DNA of 64,000 nucleotides from Actinopolyspora erythraea (GTDB lineage Bacteria > Actinomycetota > Actinomycetes > Mycobacteriales > Pseudonocardiaceae), in the NCBI RefSeq assembly GCF_002263515.1, contig NZ_CP022752.1, positions 682,001-746,000 on the forward strand. Direction: 5' to 3'. The translations under genes were made by a program, and so were the position numbers. The notes under the pieces are model-generated. The model was not told the DNA's origin, searched no databases, and saw only the letters and a program-made list of their open reading frames with translations. How positions within the stretch are numbered: position 1 is the first letter of the stretch; the number at the start of each line of letters is the position of its first letter. Of the stretch, positions 48,137 to 63,496 are shown one piece after another.

Positions 48137-48595
48137 GGTGCCTCCTCCGGTCGGGCCGTGGTGACGGCCACCATGCGGTCCAGACCAGTGTGGTGGTGCC
48201 AGAACCGATCAAGCACTCCCTCGTCCCGGCGCAGCGGGTGCTCCGGGCGGCAGAGACCGAAAGGGCCGCCACGACGTCCCGAACGGGACAGCGGGCTCGT
48301 CAGCTCCGGCTTTCCCCGAAAGTCGCGCTGCCACCACGGCCCGCGCCGGGACTCCGCGTCGGCGGCCGGACCCCGCCCGGAGAACATCGGGGAAGAGCGG
48401 TTCGCGACTCCCGGTCGCCTCAGCCGCCCCGTCAGCGCGGTGTCAGCGCTGAGTAAGACCGTGTTGCTATCCAGAACGGGTAATCCCCGGCTCCGAAGGT
48501 TCTCGTCCCCGGATCGTCGGACGGACGGGGTGCGTCCGACGAGTCGTGTCCGGGGCGTTCGAGCAGCACGGGGAGGTCCGAACCCGAGGAGACCA
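48137..48595. other. divergent intergenic region
   Basis: About 460 bp between the glucanase and the decarboxylase. No gene seen. It must carry both promoters. Confidence 0.4.
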
Positions 48596-50656
48596 ATGGC
48601 GCGCACCACGGTTCTGTTCGTAGTGGACGAGCGGCTGTCCGGGAGCTCGGAGCGGGTCGACCGACTCGTCGCGGAACTGACCGAGCGGGGCCACGAGGTC
48701 CGCTGGCGATACCCGCGCCCGGAGCGTTCCCACCCCGGCGAGGACGAGGTCGGTCCGCCCGTTGCCGAGGGCACCGACGACGGCGAGTCGGGGCGGGACA
48801 CCCACCCCGAGACCCCTGTCCCTGGCCGGAGGAGTTCCCGCGCTCCCTTCTTCCAGGCCCTGCGCGAGTACGGTCGGTCGGGAACCGAGTCCTGGCACAG
48901 CCCGGCGCACGCCGGTGGACATGCGCTCACCAACACCCAGGTCGGGGCGGAGTTCGCCGACTACCTCGGCTCGGAGGTGCTGCGTACCGACCTCTCGGTT
49001 TCGGTCCCCCGGTTCGGTTCACTGCTCGAATCCACCGGTCCGATAGGCGAGGCCGAGCGCGAGGCAGCACGGATCTTCGGCGCCGACGAGACGTTCTTCG
49101 TGCTCAACGGGAGTTCCGGGGCCAACCGTACGATCATGCACAGTTGCCTGGCACGCGGTGACGGAGCACTGCTGGACCGCAACTGCCACAAGTGCGTCTG
49201 CGACGGCGCGGCCCTCGCCGGGGCGCGCCCGAGCTACCTGGCCGCCCAGCGCAACGGTTACGGGCTCTGCGGTCCGATCCCGCCCGAGACGCTGCGGCGT
49301 TCCGGGGCGGGGACAAGCGCGTCCTACGCCGCCATCACCAACCCCACCTACGACGGCATCTGCTACGACACCACCCGCGTCGCCGAGCTGCTCGGGAACT
49401 CGGTACGCGACCTCCACTTCGACGAGGCCTGGTTCGCCCACGCCGCGTTTCACCCGCTCTACCGGAACCGCTACGCCATGGCCGTATCCGGTGCGTCCGG
49501 TGCGCCGCGCGTCTACGCGGCGCAGTCGACCCACAAGATGCTCGCGGCCCTCTCGCAGAGCGCGATGATCCACGTAGGTGCCCCGGAGGGCGAAACCCCG
49601 GACACGCACCGCCTCAACCTCACCTACGCCATGCACGCCTCCACCTCGCCGTCCTATCCCATGATCGCGGGACTGGAGGTGGCCTCGGTCATGCTGGACA
49701 ACGGCGAGGGGAACGCGCTGCTCGACGAGGTGCTCGACGAGGCGATCCGATTCCGGCAGGAGATCGCCGGACGAGCGGCCGATGCCGCCGCGAGCGGTTC
49801 AGGGTGGTTCTTCGACGTGTGGCAGCCGCACACCGTGGACGATCCCGGCTCCGGGCAGCGGTTCGACTTCCACCGGGCATCTCCCGAACTGCTTCGCGCC
49901 GAACCCCGGTGCTGGACACTCGACCCCGAGGCCGATTGGCACGGCTTCGCCGAGCTGGACGAGAACTACGCGCTGCTCGACCCGACCAAGGTGACCCTGC
50001 TGTCCCCCGGCTGCGACCAGTGGGGACGGTTCGCAGCGGCGGGCCTGCCCGCCGGGATCGTGGCACGTTACCTGGCGGAGCGGGGCGTCGTCGTGGAGAA
50101 GACCGGACACTACACGCTGCTGTTGCTGTTCTCACTGGGAACCAGCACCGCGAAGCGGCAGCATCTCTGCGGGGCGTTGCGGGATGTGAAACGCGCGTAC
50201 GACACCGACGCCCCGCTGATCGACGTGCTGCCCTCGCTGGTGAGCGAGTATCCCGAACGCTACCGGGGCGAGACGCTGCGCGGACTGGCGCACGACATGC
50301 ACGAGCGGCTGCGGGTTCACCGGCTGCCCGAGCTGCTGGACCGGGCCTACACCCGGCTGCCTCGGCAACCGAGCACTCCGGCGGACGCGCACGACGAGGT
50401 CGTTCGGGGGCGGACCACTCCGGTACCGTTGGACGAGCTGGACGGCAGGGTAGCGGCGAACATGGTCGTTCCCGTGCCACCGGGTGTGCCGATCCTGATG
50501 CCCGGTGAGGAGACCGGCCCCGCCGATGGTGCCTCGCTGGGGTACCTGGCGGCGCTGCGCGACTTCGACCGCGCGTTCCCCGGTTTCGAGCACGACGTCC
50601 ACGGCATCGACCGCGACGAGTCCGGCGAGTATCACCTCGAGTGCCTGCTCACCTAG
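48596..50656 (+). CDS. Orn/Lys/Arg decarboxylase (PLP, fold type I)
   Basis: 686 residues. The N-terminal wing region (1-90) includes a charged low-complexity stretch. PLP domain: HSPAHAGGHALTNTQVG, FVLNGSSGANRTIMHSCLARGD, FDEAWFAHAAFHP and the Lys motif AQSTHKMLAALSQSAMIH. The C-terminal domain ends MPGEETGP...LAALRDFDRAFPGFEHDVHG. Members decarboxylate arginine, lysine or ornithine to agmatine, cadaverine or putrescine; which one is not clear. ATG 48596 follows GAGGAGACCA; the long open frame upstream is shadow of the glucanase. Confidence 0.87.
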   Translation: MARTTVLFVVDERLSGSSERVDRLVAELTERGHEVRWRYPRPERSHPGEDEVGPPVAEGTDDGESGRDTHPETPVPGRRSSRAPFFQALREYGRSGTESWHSPAHAGGHALTNTQVGAEFADYLGSEVLRTDLSVSVPRFGSLLESTGPIGEAEREAARIFGADETFFVLNGSSGANRTIMHSCLARGDGALLDRNCHKCVCDGAALAGARPSYLAAQRNGYGLCGPIPPETLRRSGAGTSASYAAITNPTYDGICYDTTRVAELLGNSVRDLHFDEAWFAHAAFHPLYRNRYAMAVSGASGAPRVYAAQSTHKMLAALSQSAMIHVGAPEGETPDTHRLNLTYAMHASTSPSYPMIAGLEVASVMLDNGEGNALLDEVLDEAIRFRQEIAGRAADAAASGSGWFFDVWQPHTVDDPGSGQRFDFHRASPELLRAEPRCWTLDPEADWHGFAELDENYALLDPTKVTLLSPGCDQWGRFAAAGLPAGIVARYLAERGVVVEKTGHYTLLLLFSLGTSTAKRQHLCGALRDVKRAYDTDAPLIDVLPSLVSEYPERYRGETLRGLAHDMHERLRVHRLPELLDRAYTRLPRQPSTPADAHDEVVRGRTTPVPLDELDGRVAANMVVPVPPGVPILMPGEETGPADGASLGYLAALRDFDRAFPGFEHDVHGIDRDESGEYHLECLLT

Positions 50657-50700: not shown

Positions 50701-52218
50701 TCAGGTGTGCTCCCGCCGGAGCGCGTTCTTGTCCACCTTTCCGGTGGCACTGCGCGGCAGTCGCTCGACGAGGTCGACGCCACGGGGAACCTTGTACCTG
50801 CCCAGGCGTTCGGCGAGGAACCCGGTGAGCTCGGCGCTGTCGGGCTCGCTGCCGGAACGCGCGACGACGACCGCCTTGCCCACCTCGCCCCACGTGGGGT
50901 CGGGCATCCCCACCACGGCCGCTTCCGCGACCGCCGGGTGCTCGTGCAACACCGCCTCGATCTCGGCCGGGTAGACGTTCTCGCCTCCGGAGACGAACAT
51001 GTCCTTGAGCCGGTCCACCACGCGGTGAAACCCCTCGTCGTCGACGGAGGCGACATCGCCGGAGCGGAACCAACCGTCATCGGTGAAGGAGTCCGCGGTG
51101 GCCTCGGGCCGTCGCCAGTACCCGTCCACGACGTTCGGCCCCGCCACGAGGATCTCGCCCGGTTCGCCGGGTGACGGTGCCGTGCCGTCGGGCTTTTCGA
51201 GGCGGACGTCGCTGAAGAACGCCGGTTTGCCCGCGCAGCCGATCCGGCTCGGGCTGTCGGCCGCGCTCAGCAGCAGTACTCCGGGCGAGGCCTCCGTCAT
51301 GCCGTATCCCTGCATGAGGGGCAGTCCGCGTTCGCCGTAGCGGCGGATGAGCTCCTCCGGAACCGGGGCGCCGCCGCACAGCGGGAAGCGCAGGCTCGAC
51401 AGGTCCGCCTCGGGCCAGCGTGGCGACCGGCTCAACGCCTCGAACATGGTCGGAACCCCGAACACCAGCGTGATCCGCAGCCGTTCGACCAGGTCGAAGG
51501 TGGTGTCGACGTCGAAGCTCTCCTCCAGCACCACCGTCCCGCCCTTGAGCAGCGTGGGCAGGCAGGTCATCCCCAGCGCGGCGCTGTGGAACAGCGGGGC
51601 GTTGATCAGGGTGACCTCGGTGCTGGTGAGATCGACGTCCACCACGACGTTGAGGGCGTTCCAGACGGCGTTGCCGTGGCTGATCCGGGCCCCCTTCGGC
51701 CTGCCGGTGGTGCCGGAGGTGTAGAGGATGAACGCCGTGTCCTCGTGCGCCACGGGTTCGTCGACCCGATCGGCCGGAGAGGCGGCGATCAGGGATTCGA
51801 GGTCTTCCTCCGGTGCCTCGTCCCCGTTGACCGCGATCAGGCGAAGCCGGGGGAGGCGCTGCCGCAGCGCCCGTGCCGTCTCGGTGTGCCGCCGCTCGTG
51901 CACGAGCACCTCGGCACCGCAGTCCTCCAGCATGAAGGCCAGCTCGGCGATGGCCAGCCTGGTGTTCAGCGGTACGAACACCGCACCTAGGGCCCCCGAG
52001 GCGAACATCGTTTCCAGGAACGCCGGGTGGTTCGGACCGAGGTAGGCGATCCGGTCACCTCGGCCGAGGCGGTGACCGCGCAGCCCGTTCGCCAGCGCGT
52101 GGACCCGGTCGCGCAGCTCCGCGTAGCCCAGCGTGCGTTCCCCGTGGACCACTGCGGTGCTGTCCGGTGTGCTACGGGCGCGTCTGGTCGGCCAGGATCC
52201 CAGTCCCTGGTCGCGCAT
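50701..52218 (-). CDS. acyl-CoA synthetase, probable feruloyl/coumaroyl-CoA ligase
   Basis: 505 residues of the ANL superfamily: FILYTSGTTGRPKGARISHGN, INAPLFHSAALGM, LMQGYGMTEASPG, WFRSGDVASVDDEGFHRVVDRLKDMFVSGGENVYPAEIE and the catalytic Lys in PRSATGKVDKNAL. It activates a carboxylic acid to its CoA thioester. The neighbour at 52299 is a hydroxycinnamoyl-CoA hydratase-lyase, which points to ferulic or p-coumaric acid as substrate. ATG 52218 has GGAGGTGGAACAGCC upstream; gap to the upstream gene is 80 bp. Confidence 0.82.
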   Translation of the reverse strand: MRDQGLGSWPTRRARSTPDSTAVVHGERTLGYAELRDRVHALANGLRGHRLGRGDRIAYLGPNHPAFLETMFASGALGAVFVPLNTRLAIAELAFMLEDCGAEVLVHERRHTETARALRQRLPRLRLIAVNGDEAPEEDLESLIAASPADRVDEPVAHEDTAFILYTSGTTGRPKGARISHGNAVWNALNVVVDVDLTSTEVTLINAPLFHSAALGMTCLPTLLKGGTVVLEESFDVDTTFDLVERLRITLVFGVPTMFEALSRSPRWPEADLSSLRFPLCGGAPVPEELIRRYGERGLPLMQGYGMTEASPGVLLLSAADSPSRIGCAGKPAFFSDVRLEKPDGTAPSPGEPGEILVAGPNVVDGYWRRPEATADSFTDDGWFRSGDVASVDDEGFHRVVDRLKDMFVSGGENVYPAEIEAVLHEHPAVAEAAVVGMPDPTWGEVGKAVVVARSGSEPDSAELTGFLAERLGRYKVPRGVDLVERLPRSATGKVDKNALRREHT

Positions 52219-54739: not shown

Positions 54740-54784
54740 TGCGCCCTCGGCGGGATTCGAACCTGCGACACCCGCTTCAGGAAG
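54740..54784 (-). tRNA. 3' half of a tRNA-Arg(CCU) gene, probable attachment-site scar
   Basis: Reading the minus strand from 54784: anticodon loop containing CCT, 3' anticodon stem, variable loop, T arm GCAGG-TTCGAAT-CCCGC, acceptor CGAGGGC, then GCA. The match to tRNA-Arg(CCU) begins in the anticodon loop and ends at the 3' end. Upstream sequence cannot pair as a D-arm or acceptor. One T-stem pair is broken (A opposite C). This extent is exactly what tyrosine integrases duplicate at att sites; it is not a working tRNA. Confidence 0.65.
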
Positions 54785-56436: not shown

Positions 56437-56465
56437 TGTCAGCGACATGTCAGCGACACGTCAGC
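56437..56465 (+). promoter_or_regulatory. SARP-type direct heptamer repeats upstream of the synthetase
   Basis: TGTCAGC at 56437, TGTCAGC at 56448 and CGTCAGC at 56459: three heptamers with an exact 11-bp period, about 168 bp before the synthetase start. SARP activators of antibiotic clusters bind such repeats next to the -10 region. Confidence 0.75.
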
Positions 56466-56632
56466 GCTCCGCAACACCATGACATTCCCGTGTGGGAAAA
56501 GTTGCGCGCGAAAAGCCCTCTCACGATCTCCGGGAGGCCGAAATGGCACGAGGTCGCTCTCCACGCGCGGCGACGGAGTCCTGAAATTCACGCTCTGGAG
56601 GAAGACACAACCGAACGGCACAGGAGAACACC

Positions 56633-59600
56633 GTGACCTCTCGCATCGAGACCGCGGCGGAGAAACCACCCGCCGACTGGAACGAGACCGCCACCGACTA
56701 CCCGAAGAACACTCCGATCCACCGTCTGTTCGAACAGCAGGTCCGTACTCGCCCGGAGGCACCGGCGGTGAACAGCGGCGCCGAGGCCCTGCGCTACTGC
56801 GAGCTCGACGGCTCGGCGAACGCCCTGGCACACGAACTGGTCTCCCACGGGGTCCGCGCGGGCGAGCTGGTGGGAGTCCTGATCAAGTCCTCGGCCGAGG
56901 CCGTCGCGGCGATCCTGGCCACGCTGAAAACCGGAGCTGGCTATGTCCCCCTGGATCCGGACGACCCGGACCACAGACTGCACGGGATGTGCGAGCAGGC
57001 CGGCATCCGCGTGGTGCTGACCACCGAATCCCTGCGCTGCCGGGTGAGTGACGACCGCACCGTCGTGACGGCACGACTGGACACCTTCTCCCCCGCTCCC
57101 CCCGAGGAGGAAGCGGAGACCTCCGGTTCCGATCCGGCCTACGTGATGTTCACCTCTGGGTCCTCGGGGACCCCCAAGGCGGTGATCGTTCCCCACCGGG
57201 GGATCACGCGGCTGGTGCGGGGAACAGACCACCTGGTTCTCGGCCCCGAGGACACGGTGCTGTCCACGACCAACCTGTGCTTCGACATCTCCTGTTGGGA
57301 GATCTTCGGCGCTCTGCTCAACGGATCCCGGCTGTTGTTCGTCGACACCGAGACCCTGCTCGCGCCCAACGCCCTGGCCGAACTCATCGAGTCCGAGCGG
57401 GCGAGCGTGCTGATCCTGAGCACGGGAGTGTTTCACGAAGTGGCCCCCAAGCGCCCGGACATGTTCGGATCGCTGCGTTTCCTGGCGCTCGGTGGGGAGG
57501 CGATGAATCCCAACGTCGCCCGGAGCGTACTCGCCCACGGCCCGCCCGGCCAGTTCCTCAACGGCTACGGCCCCACCGAGAACACGGTCATGTCCACCGC
57601 CTACGATGTCGCGGAACTGGACGCGGACGCCGAGACCGTGCCGATCGGGCGTCCGATCAGCAACTCCACCGCCCACGTGCTGCGCCCGAACTTGGAACCG
57701 GCCGACATCGGCGAGGAGGGCGAACTGTGTGTCGGCGGTGACGGAGTGGCCCTCGGCTACCACGGGGCACCCGAACTCACCCGGCAACGGTTCGTCCCAG
57801 ACCCCTTCTCAGAGGTCCCCGGAGCGCGGCTGTACCGCACCGGGGACCGGGCACGTTGGCGCCCCGACGGGGTGCTCGAGTACCTGGGACGCCAGGACCG
57901 ACAGGTGAAGATCAGCGGGTTCCGCGTGGAACTGGGCGAGATTGAGTCCGTACTGGGAGCTCATCCCGAGGTGGACCAGGCCGTGGTCGAAACCCGCGTC
58001 TCCGATTCCGGGGACCGGCGTGTGCTCGCGTGGGTCTCCTCCGAACGCAGTGGCGCGAGTCCGGGTTTCGCCGAGCGGGTACGGGAGTACGCACGCGACC
58101 GCCTTCCCGAGTTCATGGTTCCGGAGGCGATCCGGCCGGTGGGGACCTTCCCACTCAACCACAGCGGCAAGGTGGACAGGTCCCGACTGCCCGAGATCGA
58201 CAGGCAACCGACGGAGGTGCGCAACCGGCCCGCGACGGAGACGGAACAGAGCGTGGCCGCGATCTGGTGCGAGCTGCTCGGGCTGCCCGCCGTCGACCGC
58301 GAAGATGACTTCTTCGCCCTGGGGGGACGTTCCCTGCACGCCACCCGGATGGTGGCACTCCTGGAAGAGGAGTGGAAGATCCCCGCCTCGCGCGGACGGT
58401 TCCTGATCCGCTGCCTGTTGGCCTCACCCACGCTGCGTGAGTTCGCCGAGAAGATCGAGGAGTCCATCTCCACGACGGGCTCCCCGGCCAACGAGACCGT
58501 GGACTTCTGGGCGGAGACGCGGCTGGACCCGGAACTGCGGTTCGACGCCCCCGTCGTGGAGAACCCGAACGACCCCGGGACGGTGCTGCTCACCGGAGCC
58601 ACCGGCTTCCTGGGGGCGTACCTGCTCGACCGGCTCGTTCGTCGCACGCGCGCCACGGTGCTGTGCCTGACCCGGGCCGAGGACGACCAACAGGCGCTGA
58701 CCAGGATCGCGGCCAACATGCGGCGTTACGGACTGTCCTTCGAGGAGGTAGCCCATCGGGTCGTTCCCTTACCCGGGGATCTCGCCCGGTCCGGTCTCGG
58801 GGTCGGGAGCCGTTTCGACGAGCTCGCCGAACGGGTCGATCTCGTGGTGCACAACGGCTCGCACGTCAACTTCGTGTTCCCGTACTCGAGCATGCGCGCG
58901 ACCAACGTCGGAGGCAGCCGCGAAGTCCTGAGGCTGGCCACCACCTCCAGGCTCAAACCCGTTCACTACGTCTCGTCGATCACCACTATCGCCGGCAACG
59001 GCGTGGCCGGGATCCGTCACGTCCCCGAGGATGCCCCGCCCGCCCATCCGGACAAGCTGTCCATGGGATACCAGGCGACGAAATGGGTTTCCGAGTGGCT
59101 CTTCCGGCAGGCCTCCGAACACGGGCTGCCGGTGAGCATCCACCGTCCCCACGAGATCACGGGAACCACCGGGGAGGGGATCTGGAACACCGACACGCTG
59201 ATATGCGCGCTGTTTCGCACCATCGCCGAGACCGGTCTCGCTCCGGACGTGGCGCTGCCGCTGGACTTCGTTCCCGTGGACGTGGCGGCCGAAACGCTGG
59301 TGCATCTGATCACCCACGAGCCGCCCCGGGGACACGCCTACCACCTGACCAATCCCCACGGCGCCCATCTCGGGCTGCTGGTGGAGCGGCTGCGGGTACG
59401 GGGATACCCGGTGCGGAAGCTGGACTACGGGCAGTGGGTGACCGAAATGATCCGGTTGGTCTCCAAGGATCCCGAGCGCCCACTGACCCCGTACATTCCC
59501 ATTTTCACCGACGCGGCCAACACCGGCGACATGACGGTCAAGGAGATGTACTTCGCCGGGACCTTCCCCACCTTCGGACGGCAGAATCTCGTCCGCGGGC

Positions 59601-59710
59601 TGGCCGACTCCGGGCTGGTCATCCCGCCCGTCGACGAGCGGCTGCTCGACCTGTACCTCGACTACTTCGAACGCTGCGGCTTCCTCGACCCCACCTCGAA
59701 GGGCGCCTGA
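56633..59710 (+). CDS. A-T-R synthetase: adenylation, carrier and thioester-reductase domains
   Basis: 1025 residues. Adenylation domain about 30-525: YVMFTSGSSGTPKA (170-183), NLCFDISCWEIF, NGYGPTENT, YRTGDRARW, GRQDRQVKISGFRVELGE and NHSGKVDR. The first three pocket residues read D-I-W; the substrate is not predicted with confidence. The carrier has DDFFALGGRSLHATRM with phosphopantetheine Ser567. The reductase has LLTGATGFLGAYLLDRL (NADPH site) and Y813/K817 in GYQATKWVSEW. No condensation domain is present, so it loads one acid and reduces it to an aldehyde or alcohol, like Lys2 or carboxylic acid reductases. GTG 56633 follows CAGGAGAACACC. Confidence 0.88.
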   Translation: MTSRIETAAEKPPADWNETATDYPKNTPIHRLFEQQVRTRPEAPAVNSGAEALRYCELDGSANALAHELVSHGVRAGELVGVLIKSSAEAVAAILATLKTGAGYVPLDPDDPDHRLHGMCEQAGIRVVLTTESLRCRVSDDRTVVTARLDTFSPAPPEEEAETSGSDPAYVMFTSGSSGTPKAVIVPHRGITRLVRGTDHLVLGPEDTVLSTTNLCFDISCWEIFGALLNGSRLLFVDTETLLAPNALAELIESERASVLILSTGVFHEVAPKRPDMFGSLRFLALGGEAMNPNVARSVLAHGPPGQFLNGYGPTENTVMSTAYDVAELDADAETVPIGRPISNSTAHVLRPNLEPADIGEEGELCVGGDGVALGYHGAPELTRQRFVPDPFSEVPGARLYRTGDRARWRPDGVLEYLGRQDRQVKISGFRVELGEIESVLGAHPEVDQAVVETRVSDSGDRRVLAWVSSERSGASPGFAERVREYARDRLPEFMVPEAIRPVGTFPLNHSGKVDRSRLPEIDRQPTEVRNRPATETEQSVAAIWCELLGLPAVDREDDFFALGGRSLHATRMVALLEEEWKIPASRGRFLIRCLLASPTLREFAEKIEESISTTGSPANETVDFWAETRLDPELRFDAPVVENPNDPGTVLLTGATGFLGAYLLDRLVRRTRATVLCLTRAEDDQQALTRIAANMRRYGLSFEEVAHRVVPLPGDLARSGLGVGSRFDELAERVDLVVHNGSHVNFVFPYSSMRATNVGGSREVLRLATTSRLKPVHYVSSITTIAGNGVAGIRHVPEDAPPAHPDKLSMGYQATKWVSEWLFRQASEHGLPVSIHRPHEITGTTGEGIWNTDTLICALFRTIAETGLAPDVALPLDFVPVDVAAETLVHLITHEPPRGHAYHLTNPHGAHLGLLVERLRVRGYPVRKLDYGQWVTEMIRLVSKDPERPLTPYIPIFTDAANTGDMTVKEMYFAGTFPTFGRQNLVRGLADSGLVIPPVDERLLDLYLDYFERCGFLDPTSKGA

Positions 59711-59723
59711 AAGGAGCAGGAAC

Positions 59724-60290
59724 ATGCACGTGGGCATCCTCGACGGAGGAATCAGCGGACTCACGGCCGCGTGGCTGCTCGACGACTCCATCGGCACCGG
59801 CGTGGACGGCGTAACCCGCTTCGGATAGCGACACCGACTCGGCTTGACCGCCGAGTCGGTGTCCGTCGGGAACGGGGTTCGCCGACCTCGGCGCACAGCA
59901 TCTGGCTCCGAAGCCGTTTCCCACCCACACCCGCCTGCTGCCACAGCTGGAACTGGAGGAGGAACTGGTCGAGGCCCCGATGAGCGTCACGGTGCTGTTG
60001 AGCGGGAAACCCTTGCTGGTCACACTCCCCACCCAGATCTACGCCCCGACCGGAGGGTTAGGCGGCCAACGCGTTGTTGCGCCGCCTGGAAACGTTCCTG
60101 ACCCGGGCCGCAGGGCTCGAGAACGATCCGAACACCTGGCAGCTGCCGGCCGAGGACGTGGTCGAGCCGCTCGATGTTCCCGACTCGTTCAAACGGGAGG
60201 TCCTCTACCCCCTGGTGCTCTCTTGCACCGGGTGTTCACTGAAACAGGCCCGCGCTCCGTCGTTCCGGGCCGCCGTGGCCTTCCTCATCC
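59724..60290 (+). pseudogene. broken FAD-dependent oxidoreductase (plus-strand copy)
   Basis: ATG 59724, with AAGGAGCAGGAAC before it, opens HVGILDGGISGLTAAWLLDD, an FAD Rossmann motif whose first Gly is Asp. A stop follows at 59826. The remainder survives in shifted frames: FADLGAQHLAPKPFPTHTRLLPQLELEEELVEAPMSV, ALLRRLETFLTRAAGLENDPNTWQLP and VLSCTGCSLKQARAPSFRAAVAFL. These match, in order, the minus-strand paralog (FDLGTQEVSAEDYPLNTRLMRLHG..., ALFGCDPREAGNLSARAATAAFL). The C-terminal part is absent. It lies 13 bp after the synthetase, so it was once cotranscribed with it. Confidence 0.75.
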
Positions 60291-61473
60291 GCAGCGCACC
60301 CGCCGAGCCGCCGCTGCGCCCGGACCACTTCGGTGGTGGGAAGCAGCTGCCGGAAACTCTCCCGAGCCAGGACCTTGGTCGGCTGTCGGGCGCGTCTGCT
60401 CACCTGGCTGCGGAAAACGTCGACACCGTGCACGGGCCCGTACCACACGGTCGTTTCGCTGTATCCCTCGCCGAGGGTGAGGTTGTTCGTCGACCAGTGT
60501 TCGCGCCTGTCGGGCATTCCCACCGGATCCCGGTGCAGGGCGTAGTCGACCTGCCGGTACGGGAAAGCGGTCAACGTCGTCCCGAGCTCCCGGAGCCCGT
60601 CGAGCGAACCGGCGATCTCCGCCGTCACGGGCGGGGGAACGGCGAATACGACAGCCTCGACCCGGGTGACCTCCCCGGTAGTGTCGACCAGCTCGTAGTC
60701 GGACCCGTTCTCCCGCACCCGCACCACTCCGGTATCCGGACGGATCCGCGCCAAGTGGAGATCAGTGGCCAGCGACCACGCCAGACTCTCCAGGCCACCG
60801 CGCACGTTCTCCGTGACCGGGGCGTGGTCACTGTGCTGGCCACCGAGGAAGGCCGCCGTGGCCGCACGGGCAGACAGGTTTCCCGCCTCGCGCGGGTCAC
60901 AGCCGAACAGCGCGGCGGGCAACGCGTACAGCAAGGGACGGGTCCGTTGGGCCGTGCCGAGCGAGTCCAGCATCTCGTCGAGCCGGACCTCCCAGTCCAG
61001 TCCCGTCCCGTGCTCTCCCACTCCTGCGCCCGCGCCAGGAATTCGGCCAGCCGGTCCCAGTGTCGACCGAGCACCTTCGTCCGGGGCCATCCGGGATCGG
61101 GACCGTGCGGCCCGACGAGCAGCGGGACCTCCTCGCCCTCGTGGAGCACGGTGCGCGAGGCCGGGACCTCCACGAAGTCCTCGTCCTCGAAGCCGTGCAG
61201 CCGCATCAGCCGCGTGTTGAGCGGATAGTCCTCGGCGGACACTTCCTGGGTGCCGAGGTCGAACCAGACCGGTCGGCCTCCGACGCGGGCCGCGACGGAA
61301 CGCGCGTTGCCACCGATGCGTCGTCCGCGTTCGAAAACCACCGGCTCATGGGGCCCGTCGATCAGCCAAGCCAGGGTGAGGCCGGCCATGCCCGCCCCGA
61401 CGATTCCTACTCGCAACGTGGGTTCATCCGAAGTGCTCGGTGACGTGACGACGCACCGCTCGTGGTGACGCAT
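60291..61473 (-). pseudogene. frameshifted FAD-dependent oxidoreductase (minus-strand copy)
   Basis: The N-terminal frame from ATG 61473 reads VGIVGAGMAGLTLAWLIDGPHEPVVFERGRRIGGNARSVAARVGGRPVWFDLGTQ up to RAQEWESTG near 61005. The gene then continues in another frame as GLDWEVRLDEMLDSLGTAQRTRPLLYALPAALFGCDP...VEAVVFAVPPPVTAEIAGSLDGL...STNNLTLGEGYSETTVWYGP, open to 60236. An indel within about 60995-61015 separates them. The family resembles COG2907-type flavin oxidoreductases. The expected C-terminal FAD-binding segment is missing. It starts 10 bp after the 61483 gene, so the two formed an operon. Confidence 0.75.
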
Positions 61474-61482
61474 CCCGGACGA

Positions 61483-62154
61483 TCATTCGAGACGCAGGTC
61501 CGCCGCCGCCTTCCAGAACCGCCCGATGCTCTCCTCGAGCAGACGAGCGCGGAATACGGCCTCGTCCGGGTCGTCGCCCCGGTCCAGCCCGTCCTGGAGG
61601 GTTTCGAGGACCTGACGCATGAGTTCCTCGGGATGTCCACCGTCGTAGTAGGTGAAGAACTCCTCGGGAACGGGCAGCTGTTTCTCGCGCACCCCGGCGG
61701 CGATCTCGGCGCAGTCGGAGAAGTAAATGGTCATGTCGGTGTGCAGTGCGAGCGCCCCGCTGGCCTGACTGCCCGTCAGCGCGATCCACGACAGGGTGCT
61801 GTTGAAGGCGTAGGCCTCCCACTCGGCGGGCCAGCGGACGAGGTCGTGCTCGGCCATGCCCAGGGAACGGGCGCATTCGAGCAGCTTCGGCAGTGCTCCG
61901 GTGATCATCTCACTCAACCGCGCGTAGAAGTCCACCACAGGACTGTGCGGGAAGCGGGCCATGAACAGCCCGTAGACGGCGAGCTCGGCGTGGTGGGCCT
62001 TCTCCTCCACGGCCACGAAGCGTTTGAGGTGTTCGACGGTGAGAGTGTTCTGGTTCAGCCGTTCGAGTAGCGCGTTGCCCACCGGACGTTCGGTGCGCAT
62101 CTGGCGCACCCGTTCGACGAGTTTCTCGGCGTCGGCGGTTTTTCCGTCGCTCAT
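61483..62154 (-). CDS. heme-oxygenase-fold (TenA/PqqC-like) protein
   Basis: 223 all-helical residues: LTVEHLKRFVAVEEKAHHAELAVYGLFMARFPHSPVVDFYARL, LVRWPAEWEAYAFNSTLSWIALTGSQASGALALHTDMTIYFSDCAEIA. Candidate metal or active-site residues are E/H in EEKAHHAE and E in EWEAY. This fold includes thiaminases, PqqC and heme-oxygenase-like di-iron oxidases; which chemistry applies is open. ATG 62154 follows GGGAGGATCCC. SARP-type heptamers lie 124-152 bp upstream in the same orientation. Confidence 0.65.
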   Translation of the reverse strand: MSDGKTADAEKLVERVRQMRTERPVGNALLERLNQNTLTVEHLKRFVAVEEKAHHAELAVYGLFMARFPHSPVVDFYARLSEMITGALPKLLECARSLGMAEHDLVRWPAEWEAYAFNSTLSWIALTGSQASGALALHTDMTIYFSDCAEIAAGVREKQLPVPEEFFTYYDGGHPEELMRQVLETLQDGLDRGDDPDEAVFRARLLEESIGRFWKAAADLRLE

Positions 62155-62277
62155 GGGATCCTCCCGGCCAGCGCGTGGTACATCCCCGTCTTTCCGTTCA
62201 GGAGGAATTCCGTGAAAACCGGAGCCACACCGATTCCGTTCCACGGGAATTCCTTGCCCACCTTTGTCCCTCCCCGA

Positions 62278-62306
62278 GCTGACACGATGCTGACGCGGCG
62301 CTGACA
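62278..62306 (-). promoter_or_regulatory. SARP-type direct heptamer repeats upstream of the heme-oxygenase-fold gene
   Basis: On the minus strand: TGTCAGC (62306-62300), CGTCAGC (62295-62289), TGTCAGC (62284-62278), exact 11-bp period. Same heptamer and spacing as at 56437, oriented toward the gene starting at 62154. Confidence 0.75.
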
Positions 62307-62575: not shown

Positions 62576-63496
62576 ATGTCCGAGGAGACAGCGAGGATCG
62601 AACCCGTCGTGATCCGAGCGGAGAGCACGGATCCGCAGCAGGAACGACTCGTCAACGCCTACGAGTACGACGTCGACACCTGGCGCAAGGTGCTCGGGCA
62701 CAACCTTCTCTTCGAATGGGGTGTGTACGACCATCCGGCCTCTCCCCGGCCGGTTTCACTGGACGAGGCGGGAGCCCGCTTCTTCGACCGTCAGCTCGAA
62801 CTGGCCGAGCGGAACGCCTCTAACCCCCTGGACCCGCGAAGGATTCTCGATCTCGGGTGCGGCTGGGGATACTGCCTGCGCCGGCTGGCCCAGTGGTTCC
62901 CGAGATGCCCGCGCCTGGAGGGGGTGAACATCAGTCGCAGCCAGCTGGAGCACTGTGGATCTCTGCTGGCCGAACACGGCCTGAAGCAGCGCACTAACCT
63001 GTACCTGTGCAACGCACGTGACCTCCGCTTGTTGCCGGACGCCGACGTCGGCCACGACCTGGTGGTGATGCGCGGGGTGGCCACTCACTTTCCTCCCGAG
63101 CTCTACGAGAGGTCGGTGGCCGCGTTGGCCGACCGGGTCGTCCCAGGAGGGGCGTTGGTCATATCCGACACGCTCTACGACAACGCCGCCGATTCGACGG
63201 CGGCGATCACCGAAGACGAGAACGATCCTTTCGAACTGCGGCACCGGAAGAGCCCCGAGTACTTCGTCCGCGTGTTGCGGGAAAACGGTTTCGCGATCCG
63301 TGACATGCGAGTGCTGCCGTCCAACACCGACGTCGCCCACTGGCTGCTGGAACTGCGTTCCAACATCGAGACCCATTTTCCCGAAGGAGTAACGGGGGCC
63401 CTGGAGGAAATCCGGGTGGCGGCCGTCCACCTGTCGGTCATGATGTTGTGTGGGCAGGCGGGCGCCTACAGCATCCTCGCGGAGCGGGCGGAGTGA
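62576..63496 (+). CDS. SAM-dependent methyltransferase (class I, CFA synthase-like start)
   Basis: 306 residues. An N-terminal VNAYEYDVDTWRKVLGHNLLFEWGVYDHP region recalls cyclopropane fatty acid synthase-type methyltransferases. SAM motif I is ILDLGCGWGYCLRRLAQWFP; motif II LEGVNISRSQLEHC; later HDLVVMRGVATHFPPELYERS and VPGGALVISDTLYD. Methylates a small molecule or lipid of unknown identity. ATG 62576 follows CGGAGGCAACC. Divergent from the heme-oxygenase-fold gene, with the SARP repeats in the shared promoter region. Confidence 0.82.
   Translation: MSEETARIEPVVIRAESTDPQQERLVNAYEYDVDTWRKVLGHNLLFEWGVYDHPASPRPVSLDEAGARFFDRQLELAERNASNPLDPRRILDLGCGWGYCLRRLAQWFPRCPRLEGVNISRSQLEHCGSLLAEHGLKQRTNLYLCNARDLRLLPDADVGHDLVVMRGVATHFPPELYERSVAALADRVVPGGALVISDTLYDNAADSTAAITEDENDPFELRHRKSPEYFVRVLRENGFAIRDMRVLPSNTDVAHWLLELRSNIETHFPEGVTGALEEIRVAAVHLSVMMLCGQAGAYSILAERAE

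Follow-up and report, generated by a model that had tools for sequence, protein, structure and literature searches.

Two triple heptamer repeats in a 64,000-nucleotide stretch of the Actinopolyspora erythraea chromosome (bases 682001-746000 of a single contig of 5,243,930 bases; this whole stretch is called the window) are probably operator-promoter elements of a SARP-type activator, for which two small SARPs of the same genome, SARP1 and SARP2, are the likeliest candidates, and they would form part of a set of about 12 promoters. In the SARP mode of action, the activator would occupy the heptamers along a single face of the helix, 8-9 bp before the -10 element, and would help RNA polymerase to start transcription. 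The promoters under this element would drive heme-oxygenase-like (HO-like), A-T-R synthetase (ATR), FAD, HisF and ADH genes at three loci, a KASIII-SDR-AfsA-acyl-CoA-oxidase-like operon, an N-acetyltransferase (NAT)/tryptophan-dioxygenase operon and single genes. Binding, activation and the assignment of SARPs to sites are what we infer from the sequence.

The first triplet, which lies upstream of the ATR gene (56437..56465, + strand; heptamers 56437-56443, 56448-56454 and 56459-56465), reads TGTCAGC-gaca-TGTCAGC-gaca-CGTCAGC and has exact GTCAG cores. The second, upstream of the HO-fold gene (62278..62306, - strand; heptamers 62300-62306, 62289-62295 and 62278-62284), reads TGTCAGC-gccg-CGTCAGC-atcg-TGTCAGC. 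An earlier interpretation of the window, here called the sequence-only reading, had described paired triplets with an exact 11-bp period and opposite orientation, and this is confirmed: each differs by 1 mismatch from TGTCAGCN4TGTCAGCN4TGTCAGC, the period is exactly 11 bp and the orientation is convergent. Heptamer pairs with at most 2 mismatches occur 5 times in the window against 0.52 expected, and none of 100 shuffles reaches 5. The consensus heptamer of PapR2 is GTCAGSS (PMC7040171), and it fits all three heptamers at 56437 (all GTCAGCG) and one of the three at 62278 (GTCAGCG, GTCAGCA and GTCAGCT); over the whole motif set, C and T prevail at the position that follows GTCAG.

Both triplets are followed at the same distance by a -10-like hexamer. 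At the ATR promoter this is CACCAT (56475..56480, + strand), 9 nt past the third heptamer, or 8 nt when counted in the GTCAGSS register, and at the HO promoter it is GACAAA (62263..62268, - strand), 9 nt past the last heptamer. GACAAA alone is weak as a -10 element; GGGACAAA at this position is shared with A. mortivallis and with another genome of the genus, G002.

Motif set in the genome and the genus

In the whole genome, the full heptamer triplet is found 6 times with at most 3 mismatches and the GTCAG-core triplet 11 times with at most 1 mismatch, and the reversed pattern gives 0 matches in both searches. A twelfth, weaker site, which has 2 core mismatches, lies upstream of an HO-ATR-FAD series at 3.508 Mb. 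The window sites had been taken for a small regulon; they are instead two members of a genome-wide set of about 12, and a local regulon of 6-7 kb is ruled out because the sites recur across the genome.

The geometry of the promoters was examined in 47 rows from seven SARP-bearing genomes of the genus, which comprise 46 core-triplet matches and the 2-mismatch sister site at 3.508 Mb, and which become 44 sites after overlapping registers are merged; two rows from G007/G008 and four from Actinomadura were left out. The hexamer TANNNT stands exactly 9 nt after the third TGTCAGY at 11 of the 44 sites, against at most 1 at any other gap from 5 to 13, and at least two of its three fixed bases are present at gap 9 in 30 of the 44, against at most 4. 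Before merging, with gaps 0-18, the counts at gap 9 are 11 and 31 of 47, and elsewhere at most 1 and 8. In the PapR2 register, which starts one base later (GTCAGSS; 8 nt after GTCAGYN), the gap to the -10 element is 8 bp, and the 3' repeat of reported SARP sites is likewise 8 bp from the -10 element (PMC10936776 and PMC4393881). SARP binding sites consist of at least two direct heptamer repeats with a period of 11 or 22 bp; the present sites are of this kind, with an 11-bp period and, over the set, an enriched 8-bp gap to the -10 position. The assignment of the window sites to the SARP type, proposed earlier, agrees with the three heptamers, the period, the published GTCAG core and the constant gap to a -10-like hexamer.

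The same operons carry these sites in several species of the 10 Actinopolyspora genomes sampled. The KASIII-SDR-AfsA-acyl-CoA-oxidase-like operon (L016 6429-10905, genome ~1.631-1.636 Mb), which looks as if it made a butyrolactone/butenolide-type signal under control of the SARP type, has its KASIII gene behind a triplet in G000, G001, G002, G005 and G006 (mutual identity 70-96%). A close AfsA gene (59-100% identity) is accompanied by a triplet before KASIII in 5/5 genomes, a count that omits a 27% match in G009 without a core-triplet match beside it. The NAT operon (L054 2782-9440, genome ~2.655-2.661 Mb), in which all genes have the same direction, encodes an N-acetyltransferase, a DUF6875-tryptophan-dioxygenase fusion, a class III aminotransferase, an amidase and a class I/II aminotransferase. 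Its NAT gene is behind a triplet in G000, G001, G004 and G006 (59-91% identity), and a close DUF6875-dioxygenase (66-100%) goes with a triplet before NAT in 4/4 genomes, not counting an incomplete match in G007 (41%) or the weak, incomplete ones in G001 and G004. An SDR gene is found behind a triplet in G000, G002 and G006 (63-68%), ATR in G000 and G006 (88%), HO in G000 (two loci) and G006, and an IclR-type gene in G002 and G006 (55%), to which the IclR of G000 is 30-32% alike. At 2.73 Mb of this genome the targets are an HO-like/FAD/HisF-like operon and a divergent ADH gene, and the remaining ones include an SDR, an IclR-type gene and an Orn/Lys/Arg decarboxylase. The last lies in the window (frame 48530-50656), 71 bp downstream of a weaker member of the set (48430..48458, + strand) with two good heptamers and AGTAAGA as the third; the decarboxylase is behind a triplet in both G000 and G002, and the G002 relative is 60% identical over 276 residues. 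A 136-aa gene that no Pfam family matches and a DeoC/LacD-family aldolase gene (L015 7974-9465, genome ~2.328-2.329 Mb) lie between two further triplets, in a convergent layout that matches the arrangement in the window.

That the triplets are chance repeats, or repeats of another role, is very improbable. The motifs are short, the genome is GC-rich and some sites have no sensible downstream gene; against this stand the missing reversed motif in this genome, the fixed -10 distance and the recurrence before orthologous operons. A version of the motif with a 10-bp period gives 2 matches in the 10 genus genomes (reversed control 5) and 0 in this genome. A chance origin of the set was rejected on window shuffles, reversed controls, this 10-bp-period control and the fixed -10 gap, and for the whole set the explanation is largely refuted. 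Triplets widespread before unrelated genes were to count against the sequence-only reading, and this is half the case: they precede other biosynthetic operons too, yet the same operons across several species, which indicates a wider regulon rather than noise.

Candidate activators

As the sequence-only reading had noted, no SARP gene lies inside the window; the genome's five BTAD matches lie at 0.37, 0.49, 3.497, 3.502 and 4.72 Mb. Two of them belong to small SARPs with Trans_reg_C and BTAD above the cut-off, in frames of 257 and 319 aa, which have an N-terminal OmpR-type DNA-binding domain followed by BTAD and are without large C-terminal domains. These two, SARP1 and SARP2, are encoded at 3.497-3.503 Mb, about 2.8 Mb from the window. 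The motif, which the sequence-only reading offered as a means to search for the activator, has led to candidates elsewhere on the chromosome. The order at this 3.50-Mb locus is triplet, HO-like, ATR, FAD, SARP1, radical SAM, PLP-decarboxylase-like and SARP2, and the locus is a sister of the window cluster. Since SARP1 and SARP2 sit in one target locus, they may also regulate themselves, and they may share or divide the sites.

Relatives of SARP1/2 (at least 45% identity) are found in 7/10 genus genomes. Both kinds are present in G000, G001, G005 and G009; G004 and G002 have one kind plus a fragment or broken copy, and G006 has a SARP2-like gene and a more distant one. The main SARP locus adjoins an aspS-like gene in 7/7 of these genomes and is near a hisS-like gene in five (G001, G002, G004, G005 and G009), neighbours that were read by eye, with Pfam confirmation in G001 alone. 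A one-mismatch triplet lies ~440 bp upstream of SARP1 in G001 and G005, and G006 has one more SARP gene after a HisF-like gene whose triplet has one mismatch. Relatives of SARP1 or SARP2 are behind or beside triplets in G000, G001, G005 and G006, and in G009 with 2 mismatches. The core triplet gives 48 matches in the 10 genomes against 8 reversed (overlapping registers counted); the seven genomes with SARP1/2 relatives hold 46 of them, against 6 in the control, and the three without hold 2, against 2. From this distribution and neighbourhood, SARP1 and SARP2 are the likeliest activators of the triplet promoters.

Several observations weigh against this assignment. The joint distribution comes from only 10 genomes of one genus, of which the three SARP-less ones may be close kin. 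G009 has both SARPs and only 1 match (plus a 2-core-mismatch site before an HO gene), and its distant AfsA-like gene (27%) has no adjacent match; G004 and G005 give 2 and 3 matches. The sister HO operon and the ATR gene of G002 each have a site with 2 core mismatches. The first called gene is more than 200 bp away at 8/44 sites, which at L048 at least is a gene-caller error, and some other sites precede only a very short frame. In the wider family, the exact core triplet occurs in 89/200 genomes (reversed control 13/200 genomes, 19 matches), and SARP1/2 relatives at E<=1e-50 are found in 7/200, all Actinopolyspora, in a search that scored 11 candidates per genome. Other regulators must therefore read similar sites, and the motif alone cannot name the activator. 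The triplet as a sufficient tag of SARP1/2 was rejected on this family search; the motif class is real yet shared by other regulators, and for this reason the naming of SARP1 and SARP2 rests on the within-genus distribution and on gene neighbourhood.

A related explanation, which we regard as unlikely, is that the triplets are read by a large BTAD protein or by an OmpR/PhoP-type response regulator, and not by SARP1 or SARP2. The genome has three large BTAD proteins (open frames of 743, 1002 and 1187 aa), the same triplet class is present in many family genomes without SARP1/2 relatives, and the PapR2 paper (PMC7040171) notes that Pho boxes and the region to which AfsR binds also have the TCA triad. 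However, large BTAD proteins (frames above 900 aa) are found in 10/10 genus genomes, also in the three whose triplet counts are at background level, and the position of SARP1 and SARP2 relatives behind or beside triplets in five genomes also counts against another regulator.

The window island and its sister loci

The ATR gene of the window (56633..59710, + strand) has an intact frame of 1025 aa, and its identity as an A-T-R synthetase, assigned earlier, is borne out by the Pfam domains AMP-binding, PP-binding and NAD_binding_4; the protein is 88% identical to one of A. mortivallis. The HO-like gene (61483..62154, - strand) has an intact frame of 223 aa, and its closest relatives are proteins of A. 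mortivallis (88%) and A. biskrensis (79%). It has no Pfam family match, and the TenA/heme-oxygenase-like fold attributed to it is recovered in the AlphaFold model (pLDDT 93.3), for which the best Foldseek match is TenA (1rtw), followed by CADD (1rcw). Among possible diiron ligands, which would mark a heme-oxygenase-like diiron oxidase (HDO), E50 is invariant in 18 sequences and H54, E57 and D140 are nearly so, as read from the sequences. Between the two genes, an amine-oxidase-like FAD2 remnant detected by tblastn (59724..60370, + strand) covers residues 1-218 of a 426-aa A. mortivallis protein in three pieces and different frames, the remainder being missing, and an amine-oxidase-like FAD1 remnant (60305..61416, - strand) covers residues 1-186 and 137-369 in two frames and lacks the C-terminus. 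A class I methyltransferase gene (62576..63496, + strand; 306 aa), which is divergent from the HO gene and without a triplet of its own, has a similar gene in the same divergent place in G002 (78% DNA identity over 893 bases). PADLOC gives no defence match for the HO-like or the ATR protein.

At 54741..54782 (+ strand), 42 bp repeat the 3' half of tRNA-Arg(CCT) with 95% identity and form the presumed left end of an island, and the intact tRNA-Arg(CCT) gene is at genome 746992-747066 (L007 6992-7066); a tRNA gene at one end and a partial copy at the other are as in an integrative element that occupies a tRNA gene. The integrase-like sequence near the tRNA gene (L007 5576-6718) is a remnant at best, below both Pfam cut-offs (Phage_integrase 23.5 bits, cut-off 27.1; N-terminal SAM-like domain 21.5, cut-off 22.6). 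This arrangement suggests that the ATR, HO and methyltransferase genes lie on an island of ~10.3 kb. The cluster had been bounded at 6-7 kb by its triplets; the local cluster is rather a decayed part of this larger island, and the methyltransferase gene falls outside that interval. The sequence-only reading as a whole is partly supported, and its scope is too narrow. ARAGORN also reports a tRNA-Sec (anticodon TCA) at 51165-51248 (- strand) of the window.

In A. mortivallis the cluster is whole and consists of a triplet, HO, FAD1, HisF-like and ADH genes, followed by convergent FAD2 and ATR genes with their own triplet. Compared with it, the window retains ATR and HO intact and FAD2 and FAD1 as fragments, and the HisF-like and ADH proteins of A. 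mortivallis match nothing there at E<=1e-3. The 2.73-Mb locus has counterparts of HO (67%), the FAD1-type gene (56%), HisF-like (52%) and ADH (55%), and the 3.50-Mb locus of ATR (59%), the FAD2-type gene (51%) and a distant HO (27%). By these gene contents, the two resident loci complement each other. The window island would be a copy of the A. mortivallis type that arrived later and has since decayed, with its switches kept.

The window sites could also be relics of a donor regulator, if the island brought its own control and the resident SARPs do not read them, which we consider somewhat less probable than reading by another resident regulator. The tRNA-Arg gene and the partial copy that bound the locus, the integrase remnant and the broken FAD genes favour such an origin. 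On the other side, the window sites keep exact cores, the resident 2.73- and 3.50-Mb loci have the same heptamer type and spacing, and the closely related cluster of A. mortivallis shares these sites and lacks a SARP1/2 relative in its 20-kb stretch, so that there too the activator would be elsewhere. Recognition of the window sites by SARP1 or SARP2 is the reading that we prefer. With intact counterparts at 2.73 and 3.50 Mb behind triplets, a pathway that is clustered elsewhere appears split over three loci, and we infer that the three serve one pathway and are tied by one promoter type. More tentatively, the small SARPs typical of the genus could be the master switch of a decentralised pathway whose pieces are united by the shared SARP promoter, with the AfsA operon providing its own hormone-like signal. 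The literature searched, including PMC6627628 and PMC7749508, showed no earlier case of one SARP governing a pathway split across the chromosome, which is not proof of absence.

Other genera and known SARP systems

Loci that unite, in whole or in part, HO, FAD, HisF, ADH, ATR, methyltransferase, FAD and aminotransferase genes, some of them in two copies, are found in actinomycetes (L029, L030-L036), among them Streptomyces and Actinomadura, in a scan that sampled at least nine loci. No published description of the HO/FAD/HisF-like/ADH/ATR/methyltransferase set was found, as judged from titles and the beginnings of abstracts. Triplets accompany the homologous clusters in part: they are present in A. 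mortivallis, G002 and Actinomadura terrae, the last of which combines the gene set with triplets, among them an exact-core one upstream of HO, and with a SARP gene (35% to SARP1). A triplet with at most 2 core mismatches is absent from all seven Streptomyces loci (whole or partial gene set) among the matches listed and from the 20 kb around each of four HO paralogues of Actinopolyspora that are more distant (L050, L051, L052 and L053). Among the matches listed, the Streptomyces loci examined have no SARP1/2-like gene (tblastn, 1e-8), and small LuxR-type genes were read in three of them, one being Pfam-tested. Control of the pathway may, from this difference, have switched between regulator families. 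The pair of ATR and HO-like genes is reminiscent of the mgo, pvf and ham clusters, and a valdiazen/leudiazen-type chemistry is therefore conceivable, though we did not adopt it. Inspection by eye of the stretches read revealed no AurF-like N-oxygenase, and no profile search for it was made.

In genome mining, the genes of a pathway and of its activator are commonly assumed to be adjacent; here a promoter motif, and not gene neighbourhood, joins pieces of an orphan A-T-R/HO-like pathway. The motif points to likely activators, adds the AfsA-type and NAT/tryptophan-dioxygenase operons, which neighbourhood searches would not connect with the pathway, and offers targets for switching on silent chemistry in Actinopolyspora.

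Among known triple heptamer operators, that of PimR has a heptamer that differs in sequence from the one found here. The PimR operator does not overlap the -35 box, whereas the sites described here are as far from the -10 element as SARP sites usually are. Regulators of the PapR2 (pristinamycin)/RedD type share the heptamer core and the 4-bp spacers, and SARP1 and SARP2 likewise combine an OmpR-type domain with BTAD. PapR2 bound the upstream regions of redP and redQ in electrophoretic mobility shift assays (PMC7040171), whereas the present sites are known from sequence. SARP genes usually sit inside the cluster that they regulate (PMC7040171), while here the sites are chromosome-wide and SARP1 and SARP2 are 2.8 Mb from the window. 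CcaR is comparable as a single SARP with heptameric sites in two clusters, those of cephamycin C and clavulanic acid (PMC6627628); these adjoin each other in a 35-kb super-cluster, whereas the three HO/ATR loci of A. erythraea lie ~0.8-2.8 Mb from one another, with parts of a gene set that elsewhere is one cluster.

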